DNA of 64,000 nucleotides, from the NCBI GenBank assembly GCA_938092135.1, contig CALLJL010000010.1, forward strand, positions 1 to 64,000. Direction: 5' to 3'. This DNA comes from an uncultured bacterium. GTDB taxonomy: Bacteria > Acidobacteriota > Aminicenantia > Aminicenantales > CALLJL01. Numbering within the stretch: position 1 is the first letter of the stretch; the number at the start of each line of letters is the position of its first letter. A program made the position numbers and the translations under genes. The notes below the pieces were generated by a model that had not been told where the DNA came from, searched no databases, and saw only the letters and a list, made by a program, of their open reading frames with translations. Shown in pieces: positions 33,218 through 40,077 of the stretch.

Positions 33218-35276
33218 GACAGGTTGGACATTTTTCGTCCGGGAGAGTGGCTCCACAAACCCGACAGTAGGTAGCATAAATATCCCTTTCGTTGTTCTGA
33301 ACAGGACCAAGATGTCTTTCGAGGACCTTAGCAATGGCGTCAGGAATTGACTGGACTAAGCCTCCTTCCGTAAAAATGGGCTCTGAGCCACCAATCCCTT
33401 TAAGCTGGCTGATAACTTCCTTGGCATCAACTCCGCTCCGTAGGGCTAAGGAAATAAGACGACCAATGGCTTCAGCGTCGGCCATCGTGGAATAGCCGCT
33501 TTTACCGATGCTGGTGAAGACTTCGAAGGGACGCTGATTATAAAAGGAAATGGTGACATAGAGATTGCCAAAGCCAGTTTTGATTTTATCCGTAACCGAA
33601 GGAAGGGAGCTCGGTCTGTCCTTAGGATAGAGACGCCTTTCAGTTTCAGCACGGTAAAGGACTTGTTCAGCTCTTGAACCGTCGCGATAGATGGTAATGC
33701 CTTTGGTGCCTAATTCATAGGCCAGCAGATAGGCCTTTTCGACGTCTTCTACGCTGGCTTTATTAGGGAAATTGATAGTCTTGGAAACTGAGTTATCCAC
33801 ATATTTCTGGAAAACAGCCTGCATTTTAACATGAGCTTCAGGTGAAATATCGTGGGCCGTGACGAAATAATCGGGAAGAGGCTCATCGGGATGGGATTCC
33901 CTCCATTCCTGGTAAATAGGGTTGATATCCTTTAATTCGCCATCGAGAATTTTAGAAGTAAATTCGAAGGCAAAGATGGGTTCAATTGAAGAGGAGCAGC
34001 CGGCGATCCGGGAAATGGTGCCTGTCGGAGCAATCGTCAGAACAGTGGCATTGCGCATCTTCTTGCCCTTGTAAATGGAGAAATTGATGTTGGGAAAATT
34101 ACCCCGTTCTTCAGCCAGTCGAGCTGATTCACGCATTGCCCTTTTCCTCATGAAACTGATAATCTTCTCCGCCAGAAGCAGAGCTTCAGGTGAGTCATAG
34201 CGAATTTTCATTAGCAGTAAAAGATCGGCCCAGCCCATTACTCCAAGCCCGATTCTTCGATTTTCCTTAGTTATTTTTTCTATTTGGGGCAAAGGATAAC
34301 GATTAACCTCAATGACATTATCTAAGAAGCGAACAGCAATGGCGATTGTATCAGCTAGGCGCTCATAATCGAACTGGTCCTTCTTTTTTGGGTCAAAGAA
34401 ATGGGCTAAATTTATTGACCCGAGATTACAGGATTCATAATCATGTAAAGGCTGTTCGCCACAGGGATTTGTAGCTCTGATGGGGCCAAGAGCTCGGGTG
34501 GGGTTCAGAGCGTTAATCCGGTCAATAAAGATTAGCCCCGGGTCACCCACGGCCCACGCAGCTTCACAAATCATGGCGAAAATTTCTCGGGCTTTTTTCT
34601 GGCCAACGACTTTTTGTTTATAGGGATCGTAAATATCATAGGTAGTGTCGTTTTTTACGGCTTCCATGAAAAGGTCGGTGGCGGCCACGGAGAGATTAAA
34701 ATTATTGACGCTTCGGCCGTCAATTTTCATTCGGATAAACTCCTCAATATCAGGATGATCTACTCGGAGAATTCCCATGTTCGCGCCCCGGCGGGTTCCC
34801 CCCTGTTTGACTGCCTCAGTAGCCGCATCGATAACCCTGAGAAAGGAAACAGGACCAGAGGCAATTCCTTGGGTTTTCCGGACGAAGCTTCCCTTAGGAC
34901 GAAGACGGCTGAAGTCAAAGCCAGTTCCACCCCCTTCTTTATGAACCAAGGCTGCATTTTTAACGGTCTCAAAAATACTTTCTAGGGAATCCTCAATGGG
35001 CAGAACAAAACAGGCGCTGAGACACATATCCCGGCCGGCACCGGTGAGCGTCGGGCTGTTGGGCATAAAATCGCGGTTCATCATCACCTTGAAAAAAGTC
35101 TCGGCCCATTTTTCCTGGTCTTTTTTGGTTTTTTCAGCCGAGGCAATGTACCTGGCTACTCGCCAGAAAAGATCAGCCGGTTCCTTGTCGATTAATTCGC
35201 CTTTTTCATTTCGCATGAAATAACGCGCCTTGAGAATTTTAAGGGCATTTTCGGAAAATCCCTTCTCTTTTAACAT
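33189..35276 (-). CDS. nrdJ: Adenosylcobalamin-dependent ribonucleotide reductase (class II)
   Basis: Reduces ribonucleotides to deoxyribonucleotides using an adenosylcobalamin radical, without oxygen. The 695-residue protein carries the RNR catalytic barrel: PNSPTLTGAG and LSACFVLP (first redox Cys), ALVHKEGGGTGFDFS, NPCGEQPL with the thiyl-radical Cys, NLGSINLAHF, and the phosphate-binding APTGTISRIAG. The C-terminal domain (about 545-650) and a final zinc-ribbon-like CRVCGATLPDEKCPTCPNCGW match the bacterial NrdJ form. GGAGGTAGTTCC precedes ATG 35276. I see no cobalamin riboswitch or clear NrdR boxes in the 380 bases upstream. It implies a B12-dependent, probably anaerobic DNA precursor supply. 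Confidence 0.95.
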   Translation of the reverse strand: MLKEKGFSENALKILKARYFMRNEKGELIDKEPADLFWRVARYIASAEKTKKDQEKWAETFFKVMMNRDFMPNSPTLTGAGRDMCLSACFVLPIEDSLESIFETVKNAALVHKEGGGTGFDFSRLRPKGSFVRKTQGIASGPVSFLRVIDAATEAVKQGGTRRGANMGILRVDHPDIEEFIRMKIDGRSVNNFNLSVAATDLFMEAVKNDTTYDIYDPYKQKVVGQKKAREIFAMICEAAWAVGDPGLIFIDRINALNPTRALGPIRATNPCGEQPLHDYESCNLGSINLAHFFDPKKKDQFDYERLADTIAIAVRFLDNVIEVNRYPLPQIEKITKENRRIGLGVMGWADLLLLMKIRYDSPEALLLAEKIISFMRKRAMRESARLAEERGNFPNINFSIYKGKKMRNATVLTIAPTGTISRIAGCSSSIEPIFAFEFTSKILDGELKDINPIYQEWRESHPDEPLPDYFVTAHDISPEAHVKMQAVFQKYVDNSVSKTINFPNKASVEDVEKAYLLAYELGTKGITIYRDGSRAEQVLYRAETERRLYPKDRPSSLPSVTDKIKTGFGNLYVTISFYNQRPFEVFTSIGKSGYSTMADAEAIGRLISLALRSGVDAKEVISQLKGIGGSEPIFTEGGLVQSIPDAIAKVLERHLGPVQNNERDIYATYCRVCGATLPDEKCPTCPNCGWSRCA

Positions 35277-35659
35277 GGAACTACCTCCTCTTTATTGACC
35301 AAAATGTTGTCAGAATAATATTTAATACCATAAAAAAGATGCGCTGAATTGAAAAATTCCTTCTTCTGAATCAGCCTTTTTTGATCCCTTTTTTTAGAAA
35401 ATTATACCTCATTTTCTTGCCTTAATTAAACCTGGGCGCAAAGAAGCTATGCTTCCTTTCAATCGAATTATATAACAAAAATTTTTTACTTCTAAATTAA
35501 TTATATAATATTTCATATAGATTGATTGGCAATAACATGGGCTTAAATGAAATCGTCATAAAATAAGTTCGCTTTTTCAATTCGCCAATAAAATTAGGGC
35601 GATAAAAAATCTCATTTTTTGAGTAAAACGGGAAAATATTAATTTATAAAATCCTTTGG
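35277..35659. other. AT-rich gap upstream of nrdJ, no gene seen
   Basis: About 380 bases, very AT-rich, between nrdJ and the thiamine-binding-like gene. It must contain the nrdJ promoter. No convincing RNA structure or conserved box was recognised. Confidence 0.45.
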
Positions 35660-35953
35660 TCAGCGTTTGCCAATAGCCTTGAGCTTAGAGGCTATAGTGG
35701 CCTCTTTATCGAGGCGGTGGTCTATTCTTAAGTCGATATGAATTCTTTTGACGCCCATTTTAACCAGAGTTTCATGGGCCTGTTTGATAACCTCAAAGAG
35801 GCGGTCAAGCGAAGGGGCTTCAATTGTTGTCGACATTCCACCAGTTTCGGAGTAGAGACCGGAATTCTCTATAACTCGCACCACTTCTTTAACAAAAGGG
35901 CTGACTGAAACTCCCTCGCTCGTGGGAAAGATGGCAAATTCAGCAATGATCAT
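35660..35953 (-). CDS. MTH1187-family thiamine-binding-like protein
   Basis: 97-residue protein of the DUF77/MTH1187 (YqgV) family, ferredoxin-like fold, usually a tetramer that binds thiamine-like ligands. Signature pieces are MIIAEFAIFPTSEG at the start, VSPFVKEVVRVIENSGL, GGMSTTIEA and KRIHIDLRIDHR. CAGGAGGAATGGA gives a strong ribosome site for ATG 35953. No thiamine genes are adjacent, so its ligand here is an assumption from family knowledge. Confidence 0.88.
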   Translation of the reverse strand: MIIAEFAIFPTSEGVSVSPFVKEVVRVIENSGLYSETGGMSTTIEAPSLDRLFEVIKQAHETLVKMGVKRIHIDLRIDHRLDKEATIASKLKAIGKR

Positions 35954-36226
35954 TCCATTCCTCCTGTTTTTAATATAATTTTATGAGGCCCAAAGGTCAA
36001 CGCCATCGATCTAACAATTGAGACTATAAGATAAAAAATTGATTTTTTGTTTTCTCCTTTATTTTTGACCTTATTCTCCCTTAATTTTCACTTTTTGGAA
36101 AAGGCGATGTGGCGGGGTTATTAGGGATGAAATTGAAGGAATTAATTTAAGCAATAGGTTTAAGTCTGATTTCAAGAATTTAGGGGGCCTAAGACCCAAA
36201 AGTGGTACTTTCTATTTTGGGTGAGG

Positions 36227-37471
36227 TTAAAATTGATGATTGTTGTTAGTCTGATTATCGAGAAAAAAAATGTTTGTGTCCCCATTTTGGAGGGAAAGGC
36301 GTTTGATGAACATGGTGGCATAGGAACCACGGCCAAGTTCAAAGGAAATGGTGATTTTTTTGTAACCTCGATAAATTTCATCCTCATCTGAATCGAGGAT
36401 ATGAAAATTAATGGGGAAAGCCGCTGCTGGTCGTAAATAGGAGCGAAATCTAACTAGACCGAGAACCCTTGTCCGGAAAGAAGCTGGCTTTAAACCCTTT
36501 TCCTTTAGTATTTCTAAAAAAAGAAATTTAATAGTCTCATCGGGAAATTCCATTTTGGAGGCGGCAGTGGGAAGCTGGAGTTGATGAAAATAATCTCTCA
36601 TTTTTTCATCGGGCAATTGCCAGAAGAGGTAATTTCCTTCCCGGCCAGGAGAACTTGCCCAACTAACTCCTTGAAAGAGAATTAGGCGGCGGAGAAGTTC
36701 ATTCCAGAGATGTGCCTGGTAGGCCGAATAAAGAAAGGCCACTTCAGGTGGAGGAATAAATTGGAGGGCCTTTTCAGGTTTATTGGGATTTTTCTTGAGG
36801 GCGTCAAAAATTTTTTTCTCTTCTGCTCTTTCGGCAATCTCATAACATTTTTCCCAGTTTCTCCAATTAGCCAAAAAAGCCTTTCGCCTTTCCTTCTCTC
36901 TTTTTTTCATACTTGGAGTAATGGAAGTGAGATAAACCTGAAGGGCGCCATTATAATGGCGAAGCAAAATTTTTTCGGCAAAGAAGCCGCGCGCAGGATC
37001 ATAGCTTCGAAAACGTTGATCATCAAAATAATTGGCATAACCTGAAATCTTGACTTCTTCAATCGCCTTAAGAATGGCCTCAAGATTTTTTATGCGGCGC
37101 AGGGTAATCTCAAAGTAATTGCCCTCAATCAAATCAGGTCCCATTGGCCGGTCCATGAAACCTACCGGCTCGAGCGAAAAATTTTTTTCTTCTAAGGAAA
37201 TTGGCTGGCCCTGAAAAATGGTAATAAATTGAGTGGTCAAACCATATTTATCCTTTCGTCCTCCCCAGGAAATGGCGGCAAGAGGGTAATTGAGATGGCG
37301 AGCTATCAGGCGGCAGGCCTGTTCTGTAGTCAAGTTCTTTTTGGTCAGGCGATAAACACAATAGGCACCGGAAGAGCATAGAGATAACTTAGCTTTTTCC
37401 TTTACCTTAAATTCCTCTGGCCTGACCTTCAAAATGGGGACACAAACATTTTTCTTTCCTTCTTTCATCAT
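36227..37471 (-). CDS. truD: tRNA pseudouridine(13) synthase TruD
   Basis: Isomerises U13 in tRNA(Glu) to pseudouridine. Conserved blocks are ILKVRPEEFKVKE near the start, GGRKDKYGLTTQ (about 70-81) whose Asp is the expected catalytic residue, NYFDDQRFRS (about 140-149) and a C-terminal GRGSYATMFIKRL. Length 414. The family core begins at the KVRPEEF block and ends near MFIKRL. The 13 extra N-terminal and about 20 extra C-terminal residues are encoded by the two arms of a perfect 24-bp inverted repeat and its flank. Start ATG 37471 is followed at once by a second ATG; the ribosome site is weak (TAGGG). Confidence 0.92.
   Translation of the reverse strand: MMKEGKKNVCVPILKVRPEEFKVKEKAKLSLCSSGAYCVYRLTKKNLTTEQACRLIARHLNYPLAAISWGGRKDKYGLTTQFITIFQGQPISLEEKNFSLEPVGFMDRPMGPDLIEGNYFEITLRRIKNLEAILKAIEEVKISGYANYFDDQRFRSYDPARGFFAEKILLRHYNGALQVYLTSITPSMKKREKERRKAFLANWRNWEKCYEIAERAEEKKIFDALKKNPNKPEKALQFIPPPEVAFLYSAYQAHLWNELLRRLILFQGVSWASSPGREGNYLFWQLPDEKMRDYFHQLQLPTAASKMEFPDETIKFLFLEILKEKGLKPASFRTRVLGLVRFRSYLRPAAAFPINFHILDSDEDEIYRGYKKITISFELGRGSYATMFIKRLSLQNGDTNIFFLDNQTNNNHQF
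36266..36289. repeat. 24-bp inverted repeat flanking truD, arm 1
   Basis: AAAAATGTTTGTGTCCCCAT plus TTTG. It is the exact reverse complement of 37430-37453 and lies within the 3' end of the truD coding sequence. Confidence 0.9.
37430..37453. repeat. 24-bp inverted repeat flanking truD, arm 2
   Basis: CAAAATGGGGACACAAACAT plus TTTT. It lies within the 5' end of truD, spanning codons 7-14, and is the perfect inverse of arm 1. Confidence 0.9.
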
Positions 37472-37821
37472 CCCTACAAAAGGGGGATAAAAACATTTTT
37501 CTCTATTGCTTCTTTTAACATATCAGCTATATTATGATCTTTTATCTAATTTACAATCTTTTATCTAAATTACGATTTTTCTACCTCTAATTTTACCAGA
37601 TTATTTTTCATGAAGAGGCTTCTTTTTTGCAAATAAATTCTTTTTAATAAAAAAAGACCGAAGAAAGAAGAGGAATTGAGAGGACATGGATAAATCGATT
37701 CCACCTTTAATCTCTGATTGCCCTCTTTATAATCGCCAGTTTTAATAGACGCCAATTTTGAGTTGCCAAAAAAGAACGCTTTTAGTTAATATCTTCCTAA
37801 GGTAAAGGAAGAGGAGGCCTC
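37472..37821. other. Divergent gap between truD and the DPP-IV-like gene
   Basis: About 350 AT-rich bases. It holds a two-copy 19-bp tandem repeat at 37537-37573. A 61-codon frame on the minus strand (37570-37755) has no ribosome site or protein-like character. No promoter is convincing. Confidence 0.45.
37537..37573. repeat. Two-copy 19-bp-period tandem repeat
   Basis: ATCTTTTATCTAATTTAC and ATCTTTTATCTAAATTAC, 17 of 18 identical, separated by one base. It lies upstream of truD on its coding strand. Confidence 0.55.
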
Positions 37822-40077
37822 ATGAGAAAAACCATTCTTTTCAGGTGTTTCCAATCAATAGCTTTTCCCTTTCTTTTAATTTCTTTCCTTTTTTTTACTT
37901 TGTCGGTCTTTTCCCTGGCTCAGGCTCCGCCCCGGGGCATTGAATTATATAAAAAGTTAGCTGACCCCAATCTGGTTAAATTTGAAGGCCTTCGGCGAGT
38001 TCAGTGGATGCCGGATGGGCAAAGCTATGTCCTTCAAGAGAAAGATACTTTCTTTCGGATTGAGGCCATGAGCGGCGAGTCTTATCCTCTCTTTGACGAC
38101 GCCAAAATTATTGCTGCCTATAATCGCCTAACAGGAAAAAATGTCGCTTCCCTGCCCTTTAAAAGCTTTTCTTTTATCGAAGGAGGCCGGCGCATAATGT
38201 TTACCGAAGAGGAAGGCCGCCTAGTTTATCTCTGCAATCCGGCAAGCGGTGATCTCGTTCGTTATGTTTTTCGCTATTTTGCCACTGGTGTCCGTGGCCG
38301 TCGGTATACTGAAGTTTTTTCGCCTGATTATAAATTCACGGCCTATGCCCGCGACTATAACCTTTATCTTCGTGACCTTGAAAAGGATCTGGAGATTCCT
38401 TTAACTACTGATGGTCGTGAAGAGCTTCGCAATGGCTGGCCTGACTGGGTTTATCCCGAAGAATTGAATCAATATGAAGCCTTCTGGTGGTCACCCGATG
38501 GCCAGATGATTGCTTTTATGCAATTTGATGAGCGACCGGTCGCTCTTTATCCAATTGTCCGGGATGCCTCAATTCCCACCAAGTTAGAGCTAATGCGCTA
38601 CCCTAAAGCTGGCGCGAACAATCCGATTATTCGCCTTTTTGTGATTGACGTAAAAACGAAAAAAATAGTTCAGCTCGATACAGGAATTGAAACTAATGTT
38701 TATATTTTCAAAGGTCAGTGGACCCCTGACGGCAAGGAATTTACTTTCCTCCGCTTAAATCGCCATCAAAACAAGCTGGAATTGTTAGCGGCTGATCCCA
38801 AAACAGGGCAGAGCCGAGTGATTCTCAAGGAGGAGGAGCCCTGCTATTTTAATGAAGATGTTCGACCTTTCTTTCTTCGGGATGGCCAGCGTTTTCTTTG
38901 GACTTCCGAAGTTACTGGTTGGAAGGAGATTTATCTTTACGATATGAAAGGCAAATTAATTAAGCAGCTGACCAATCTCAAACTGCCCGTCGGCAGTATT
39001 GTCGAAATTGATGAGACTGGAGGCTGGGTCTATTTTACCGGTTATGAAACCAGGGGGTGCGACCAGCATCTATATCGGGTAAAACTTGACGGCTCCGCCT
39101 TAACCAAGCTAACCACAAAACCCGGCTGGCACTCAGTTAGTGTTTCGCCGGGAGGATATTACTTTGTTGATGAGTTTTCCTCCTGGGATAACCCTCCTGA
39201 GGTTAATCTTTATGCGGGCAATGGCACCTTCCTCCGGCAGCTTGGCCGAACAGTTCTGACTGAAGAATTTAAGCAACTCAATCTCCTCAAGCCTGAACAT
39301 TTTATTTTTAAATCAGCCGACGGGAAGGATGATATTGATGGTATCATCTTTAAACCCGCTGATTTTGATCCAAACAAGAAATATCCTGTCTATTATGCCG
39401 TTTACGGAGGGCCGGGGGCTAGAATGATTCGTAATACCTGGCAAATGACGAGTCCCAACATGAGGATCGCCCAGCTTGGCTTCGTTGTGCTTCAAACAGA
39501 CCATAGCGGAGTTTCGCAGCGGGGCAAGGCTTTTCAGACCAAAAGCTATTTAAAGCTGGGCCAAGTAGAACTGGCCGATCATGTGGCCGCCATAAAACAC
39601 CTTAGTCAATACCCTTGGTTTGATGCCACTCGCGTTGGTATTACCGGCCACTCCTATGGAGGTTATCTAACCTGTATGGCTTTGCTCAAGGAGCCCGATG
39701 TCTTCCACGTGGGTGTAGCTGGTGCTCCTGTTACCGATTGGCGTAACTACGATTCAATTTACACCGAAAGATACATGAGGCGACCCGAGGATAATCCTGA
39801 AGGCTATGAAAAAGGTTCTTGCCTGAATTATGTCAAAAATTTCAAGGGCAAACTGCAGATTCATCATGGGACAGTGGATGATAATGTTCATCCGGCTAAT
39901 ACCATTCAGCTTGTCTATGCTTTGCTTCGTGAAGGCAAAAGAATTGACTGGAAAATGTATCCTGAACAGGACCATGGTATCAGATTTGCCCAGTACGGTC
40001 AGGATCGCCTCGATTTTATGATTCTCCACCTCAAGCCTGAAACTTGGGAGCAATGGTTTAAAGAACAGCAAAAATAA
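37822..40077 (+). CDS. Dipeptidyl peptidase IV-like S9 family peptidase
   Basis: Secreted or periplasmic serine exopeptidase expected to release N-terminal X-Pro or X-Ala dipeptides. Signal peptide at about 1-34 ending SLAQA. A beta-propeller (about 70-490) contains DWVYPEELNQYEAFWWSPDG, the DPP-IV double-Glu region that binds the substrate N-terminus. The alpha/beta-hydrolase domain has nucleophile Ser611 in GHSYGG, an Asp in DDNVHPANT and His in EQDHGI. Length 751, normal. GAAGAGGAGG precedes ATG 37822. With the amidases and glycosidases in the window it fits a life on proteinaceous and polymeric matter. Confidence 0.93.
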   Translation: MRKTILFRCFQSIAFPFLLISFLFFTLSVFSLAQAPPRGIELYKKLADPNLVKFEGLRRVQWMPDGQSYVLQEKDTFFRIEAMSGESYPLFDDAKIIAAYNRLTGKNVASLPFKSFSFIEGGRRIMFTEEEGRLVYLCNPASGDLVRYVFRYFATGVRGRRYTEVFSPDYKFTAYARDYNLYLRDLEKDLEIPLTTDGREELRNGWPDWVYPEELNQYEAFWWSPDGQMIAFMQFDERPVALYPIVRDASIPTKLELMRYPKAGANNPIIRLFVIDVKTKKIVQLDTGIETNVYIFKGQWTPDGKEFTFLRLNRHQNKLELLAADPKTGQSRVILKEEEPCYFNEDVRPFFLRDGQRFLWTSEVTGWKEIYLYDMKGKLIKQLTNLKLPVGSIVEIDETGGWVYFTGYETRGCDQHLYRVKLDGSALTKLTTKPGWHSVSVSPGGYYFVDEFSSWDNPPEVNLYAGNGTFLRQLGRTVLTEEFKQLNLLKPEHFIFKSADGKDDIDGIIFKPADFDPNKKYPVYYAVYGGPGARMIRNTWQMTSPNMRIAQLGFVVLQTDHSGVSQRGKAFQTKSYLKLGQVELADHVAAIKHLSQYPWFDATRVGITGHSYGGYLTCMALLKEPDVFHVGVAGAPVTDWRNYDSIYTERYMRRPEDNPEGYEKGSCLNYVKNFKGKLQIHHGTVDDNVHPANTIQLVYALLREGKRIDWKMYPEQDHGIRFAQYGQDRLDFMILHLKPETWEQWFKEQQK

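Follow-up and report, generated by a model that had tools for sequence, protein, structure and literature searches.

The inverted repeat at the ends of a truD gene is best read as two REP-like insertions absorbed into the protein

The truD gene of the analysed window (the whole stretch of 64,000 nucleotides) carries an inverted repeat inside both ends of its own reading frame. This raises the question whether the gene was moved as a cassette between transposase-recognised ends, or whether repeats landed at both gene ends and joined the protein. The repeat itself is real: positions 36266-36289 (+) and 37430-37453 (-) are reverse complements at 24 of 24 positions, and an ungapped extension covers 31 nt (36263-36293 and 37426-37456) with 94% identity. 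At the window's composition, about 5e-7 perfect 24-nt inverted pairs no more than 1.3 kb apart are expected per 64 kb. With one mismatch or fewer, GTGTCCCCATTTT was found twice in the window versus 0.10 expected, and none of 100 shuffles gave two. The conserved TruD core was confirmed to lie almost exactly between the arms, which read KNVCVPIL (codons 7-14, if the start is 37471) and QNGDTNIF (codons 395-402), the codon numbers being assigned by hand. Candidate starts are ATG at 37471, ATG at 37468 or a TTG in the element end. The best NCBIfam match of the protein was NF002160 (5.9e-68, 229.8 bits, under its cut-off of 428). The best solved relative, 1z2z, aligns with TruD residues 17-264 and 360-391, and the ends lie outside the alignment. 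Our answer, to which we give a probability of about 0.83, is that the inverted repeat represents two separate REP-like insertions, mobilised in trans by a transposase encoded on contig C23 and absorbed into the protein.

Table 1. Positions of truD, its neighbours and the nearby element copies, and the element-coded gene starts judged by eye across the genome
Feature	Position	Strand	Evidence
truD, tRNA pseudouridine(13) synthase, 414-aa ORF, core residues 13-391	36227..37471	-	Pfam TruD 2.5e-54
Thiamine_BP-family gene, adjacent to truD on its downstream side (window and G001)	35660..35953	-	Pfam 1.4e-27
Divergent 751-aa ORF, adjacent to truD on its upstream side (window and G001)	37822..40077	+	ORF
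REP-like copy 1, AAAAATGTTTGTGTCCCCATTTT	36266..36288	+	R1 match, 29 bits (top score of R1 search); inverted-repeat arm
REP-like copy 2	37431..37453	-	R1 match, 29 bits; inverted-repeat arm
Copy 3, diverged, 20/23 to consensus	37478..37500	-	Inverted match, 87% over 30 nt
5' ends judged element-coded	C3:149385 (MFVSPFWEEID), C6:3077, truD, C13:241111, C19:102641, C19:112285, C23:215977, C23:244263		By eye

Both arms of the repeat are copies of a 23-bp element, AAAAATGTWTGTGTCCCYATTTT, that is dispersed through the genome. Copy 1 points its head into the 3' end of truD, and copy 2 is oriented as truD with its head toward the gene body. A third copy, unmentioned in the original prediction, lies directly upstream of the truD ORF start and is absent from the R1 matches at E 0.01. 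A search of the genome for TGTGTCCCCATTTT gave 37 exact and 32 one-mismatch matches (0 for the reversed-pattern control), so the repeat is not private to truD, and the outcome named in the original prediction as refuting it, a 24-mer confined to this gene, did not occur. The logo of 70 copies gave AAAAATGTWTGTGTCCCYATTTT with sharp ends over 23 nt; these copies were the ones with an A-rich tail and an intact core among 80 loosely matched sites in the fetched stretches, and 10 were dropped. R1, a sequence-only model from 33 distinct variants (E 0.01), matched 78 sites in the 2.84-Mb genome of the window; in G001, a genome of the same genus, it matched 4 (two near-consensus at 28.3 bits and two weaker), under strict search filters by which some weak matches were lost. 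Any R1 match was found in 9 of 59 genomes, the window's own included. Exact TGTGTCCCYATTTT was present at 51 sites here, 13 in G038, 6 in G021, 5 in G008 and 2 in G001, the lower counts being partly related repeats with only the head in common. At least one such site was found in 21 of the 59 genomes, own included (reversed control: 2 matches, in G005 and G053).

The REP-type character that had been proposed for the repeat is thus borne out by a dispersed 23-bp family with a linked Y1 transposase. With 78 matches, the family agrees with the short dispersed repeats of REP-like elements (20-40 bp, many copies). Its predicted hairpin has a 6-bp stem AAAATG/CATTTT (-2.1 kcal/mol, z -1.66), and 26 of 200 shuffles were equally good; a TA variant gave no fold, and the version of the repeat in G016 folds well (z -7.22). 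A GTAG or CGTC tag is absent from the 23-nt consensus and is unconserved in the flanks of the 70 copies. These flanks showed no longer common unit, only a G-rich head side beyond 23 nt. AAAAATGTWTGTGTCCCYATTTT is best read as REP-like and as belonging to a REP/RAYT system of the Aminicenantes lineage.

To compare the TruD termini, the window protein was aligned with 18 homologues (19 sequences) as stop-to-stop frames, and upstream residues were not called protein. L067 (much longer frame), L074 (beginning at query residue 41) and the G019 fragments L077 and L078 were left out. In all 18 homologues, read at the residue level, M or V precedes I-K-x-x-P-E/G-D/E-F; the window protein has I-L-K there. 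KNVCVPIL before the core was found in the window protein only. The C-terminal motif LQxGxTN was found only in the window protein (LQNGDTN) and that of G001 (LQKGNTN); the other 17 homologues end no more than about 17 residues past the core K-R/Y/M with unrelated tails. At both of its ends, the TruD reading frame has residues that are located in element sequence and absent from the aligned outgroup TruDs, and the claim that the terminal residues are repeat-encoded holds. LQKGNTN in G001 could be what is left of the same insertion, older there and decayed, or it could have arisen by chance. The left truD arm is a perfect consensus, whereas the homologous G001 tail is diverged.

The genome has two Y1_Tnp genes, on contigs C23 and C29. 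Copies at 234994 (-) and 236226 (+)/236252 (+) flank the C23 gene (L023:7302-8006), with tails toward the gene and heads outward. Its protein matches Y1_Tnp above the Pfam cut-off (3.7e-14), and its best NCBIfam match is REP_Tyr_transpos (1.7e-17, 63.7 bits versus a cut-off of 80). A G016 homologue, 42% identical, passes REP_Tyr_transpos at 81.4; it is one of eight Y1 proteins compared with that of C23, and the remaining seven are 58-64% identical to the C23 protein. The suggested REP-associated transposase thus has a candidate in C23, with element copies on both sides. A search with the C23 protein gave 24 named loci, titled Candidatus Aminicenantes or Saccharicenans (15), Acidobacteria(ota) (3), uncultured bacterium (3) and others (3), which would place the window in the Aminicenantes lineage. 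In G001 (94% complete), the genes flanking C23 start 86 nt apart with no Y1 gene between them. The only Y1_Tnp match found there is 80% identical to our C29 and 59% to our C23; a C23-type gene was not found in G001, which keeps its two near-consensus copies.

Other genomes offer parallel cases. Two Y1 genes of G038 are flanked on both sides by their own repeat families, beginning AAAAATAGGAAATATAGATTGTGTCCC and AAAAAATAGTGAAATTCTAGGGTGTCCCC, and AAAATAGGATGTGTCCCTATTT-like copies flank a Y1 gene in G016 (by eye); the Y1-flanking repeats of G038 and G016 have GTGTCCC in common. Y1_Tnp genes were found in 44 of 59 genomes versus 9 of 59 for the element, and the presence of a Y1 gene therefore does not by itself predict the element. 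From the linkage and the parallel cases, we infer that the element is mobile and that the C23 transposase may move it. Within L023 (C23:232700-245500), element copies form a dense cluster around the C23 transposase gene, and a spurious-looking ORF (L023:9749-10396) is rich in repeat-encoded words. A second repeat family (GGTACCGCCTTACTTATTTACC type, GGTACC-type) surrounds C29 and its G001 ortholog (L021, L080), and similar sequence adjoins GTGTCCC copies at C2:19541 and C21:10244.

The placement of the copies was scored by asking whether a frame probed 60 nt from either element end stays open for 150 codons or more. Among 69 scorable sites, a long frame was found on the head side only at 38, on the tail side only at 3, on both sides at 17 and on neither at 11. 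The 29 sites in the G038 stretches gave 24, 0, 2 and 3, respectively. Tandem copies and copies at one gene were scored apart, and the sites in these counts are not all independent. Copies at gene edges have the CCCCATTTT head toward the gene. The head is met by the 3' end of 23 of the 55 head-side ORFs and by the 5' end of the other 32. The 3' ends comprise 15 with TAA no more than 2 nt from the junction, 7 that enter the element (two of them one gene, C2:30937 and C2:30965) and 1 that leaves the stretch. An in-frame ATG, GTG or TTG in or upstream of the element was found at 18 of the 32 5' ends, and 8 of these 18 were judged by eye to be truly element-coded, from G001 orthologs, ribosome-binding sites or signal-peptide logic (Table 1). 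The gene at C3:149385 is presumably NadC-like; the N-terminal segment at C19:112285, a site without G001 comparison, ends in LGGC, which we take to be a lipobox. The 5' end at C19:102641 reads LKKIVCVPIFVLWAGSIYGHP versus IKLIYIPLLVFLLGLNLDGHP in G001. C13:42048 and C19:95899, among others, have a better start downstream. Copies open in frame at gene edges read VCVPIF, MFVSPF and GDTNIF.

The gene ends were compared with G001 by one chimeric query of 32 of the 53 gene-end pieces, and 30 loci of the 79 matches were read by eye. A decayed copy is recognisable in G001 at C17:177125 (R1 24.6 bits), C14:23167 and C3:149385; the majority of the remaining sites look empty there by eye, in intergenic DNA too diverged for certainty. 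At C2:262200, C19:515, C19:26210, C19:60347 and C23:238662 the protein is 2-4 codons shorter than that of G001, so the junction TAA at these five sites seems to have been created by the insertion. Four other sites, C8:190756, C14:23167, C17:177125 and C23:232711, have the stop at the same place in both genomes, and the copy there therefore follows a native stop.

Adjacent copies less than 700 nt apart were outward-facing in 4 cases, inward in 1 and tandem in 15 in this genome (70 copies), and 12, 1 and 0 in the G038 stretches. The interiors of the 12 outward pairs of G038 (105-433 nt) are unrelated except for one pair over 31 nt, and a MITE with a common interior was rejected. Several outward pairs in G038 (L083, L084, L082) have unequal heads, ATTTT versus TGTTT, and unrelated interiors. 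At one outward-pair site of G038 the same unit is present in G065 (84% identical); among eight other loci, six have 39-70 nt between the genes and two have 311 and 315 nt without a repeat. The head-toward-gene rule would follow if an outward pair inserts into a tight intergenic space and one arm is then lost; a G-rich target side is another possibility. The G fraction of the head flank was 0.45 at 20 3'-sites and 0.38 at 33 5'-sites, with controls of 0.23 and 0.27 (36 window ORFs). No strict target word was found in this flank, and its role as an insertion target is suggestive only.

Elsewhere in the genome, an esterase gene (PF00756) at G000:C6:3077-4496 (L031) lies between outward-facing copies, and its flanking genes are close together in G001. 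The homologues most similar to the esterase (75-79%) come from genus g12, whose TruD is about 46% identical; the best match in G001 reaches 30%. This suggests that the gene may have been gained horizontally. Esterase as REP cargo was not supported, with five homologous loci lacking GTGTCCC within about 1.5 kb.

An alternative explains the 23-mer as a signal in DNA or RNA (an operator, or a processing or termination signal) that is held at gene edges by selection and is not mobile. The gene-edge placement and orientation, the strong conservation between copies, and the several copies that directly precede ribosome-binding-site-like sequence (by eye) would all fit such a signal. However, many orthologous gene ends in G001 have no recognisable copy by eye, the numbers differ as 78 versus 4 within one genus, and copies are open in several frames of unrelated genes. 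The Y1 genes of other genomes also carry their own repeat versions, and Rfam gave no match at gathering score over 34000-39500. A signal is therefore considered rather improbable.

A mobilised truD cassette with transposase-recognised inverted-repeat ends is a far poorer candidate. It has in its favour the perfect 24-bp inverted pair that brackets the conserved core, but it is contradicted by synteny. Of the 59 genomes, 22 yielded a truD, the window's own included, and synteny was compared with G001, whose TruD is 70% identical. Both neighbours are conserved there, as read by eye from the letters of L057: the Thiamine_BP-family gene has the same coding start, and the 751-aa ORF, which we take to be peptidase-like, has a matching N-terminal coding sequence on the other strand (translated by eye). 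At the DNA level, the window reads ATGATG, then 36 nt that include the element, then AAGGTC, and the corresponding stretch of G001 is ATGATCAAGGTC (by eye). From the shared neighbours and ATGATCAAGGTC at the element position, truD was most likely in place before the repeats came. The heads also point into truD, in contrast to the outward heads around the C23 transposase gene, and outward pairs exceed inward ones both here (4 to 1) and in G038 (12 to 1). An assembly artefact, in which the arms come from a mis-joined repeat, is hardly credible, with copies of only 23 bp, an ORF open through both arms, a gene order that agrees with G001 and copies at unrelated genes that behave alike.

These comparisons favour repeats that landed at both gene ends and joined the reading frame, the second of the two origins first proposed. 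In the two-insertion reading, the RAYT-type Y1 transposase C23, encoded elsewhere in the genome, would move the 23-bp element in trans. One copy would have landed in frame within the first truD codons, giving MMKEGKKNVCVPILKVRPEEF where relatives have M/V-I-K-x-x-P-E/G-D/E-F. Another would have landed near codon 394, and the end would have become a tail of about 20 residues. The same course seems to have been taken at other genes, where a copy abuts TAA or is open in frame. Such insertions would be tolerated because the consensus has no stop codon in any frame of either strand. A bolder proposal, which we regard as unlikely, is that a REP/RAYT system of this Aminicenantes lineage acts as a generator of protein termini. 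Border-directed insertion in a fixed orientation, with stop-free frames and an internal ATG, would provide a portable start, signal-peptide segment or C-terminal tail that is repeatedly kept by selection. In the literature searched, no paper on a REP supplying a start codon or signal peptide was recognised by title.

Repeat insertion would explain the odd ends of TruD and of other predicted proteins in the lineage, and terminal motifs such as VCVPIF should not be read as functional. The two same-genus genomes, with and apparently without a matching transposase gene, form a natural test of repeat decay after transposase loss. The orientation rule gives a testable hint of how REPs choose gene borders.

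Among known systems, the available parts of PMC3116915 and PMC8049555 describe REPINs, in which RAYT replicates inverted pairs whose spacers are poorly conserved or highly diverse. The element here is likewise short, many-copy and Y1-transposase-linked, but it is AT-rich, with a weak hairpin and no GTAG tag, and only 4 outward pairs within 700 nt were found among 70 copies, with 15 tandem neighbours. In the portions available, PMC3733652 reports REPs close to ORF 3' ends and REP termini that provide the TAG stop codon; it also describes ORFs, N-termini included, with residues encoded by REPs, and REPs that interrupt the genes for tRNA pseudouridine synthases A and B. These GTAG/CGTC-tagged REPs resemble our element in their placement at ORF ends, stop supply, encoded residues and occurrence in pseudouridine synthase genes. 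In contrast, our element is untagged, its junction stop is TAA, the gene is truD and the lineage is another. The same portions of PMC3733652 mention Rickettsia palindromic elements (RPE) inside protein-coding genes, including a pseudouridine synthase B gene; the likeness is by description, and the phylum differs. No papers on REPs of the Aminicenantes lineage were recognised in the literature searched, which left subscription journals mostly outside. Since the supply of stops and protein residues by REPs is already in print, as far as the available parts of PMC3733652 describe it, the element is a new untagged family with known behaviour. The present analysis adds a family without tags from a different lineage, the linkage of that family to one of the two Y1 genes, and the example of truD.
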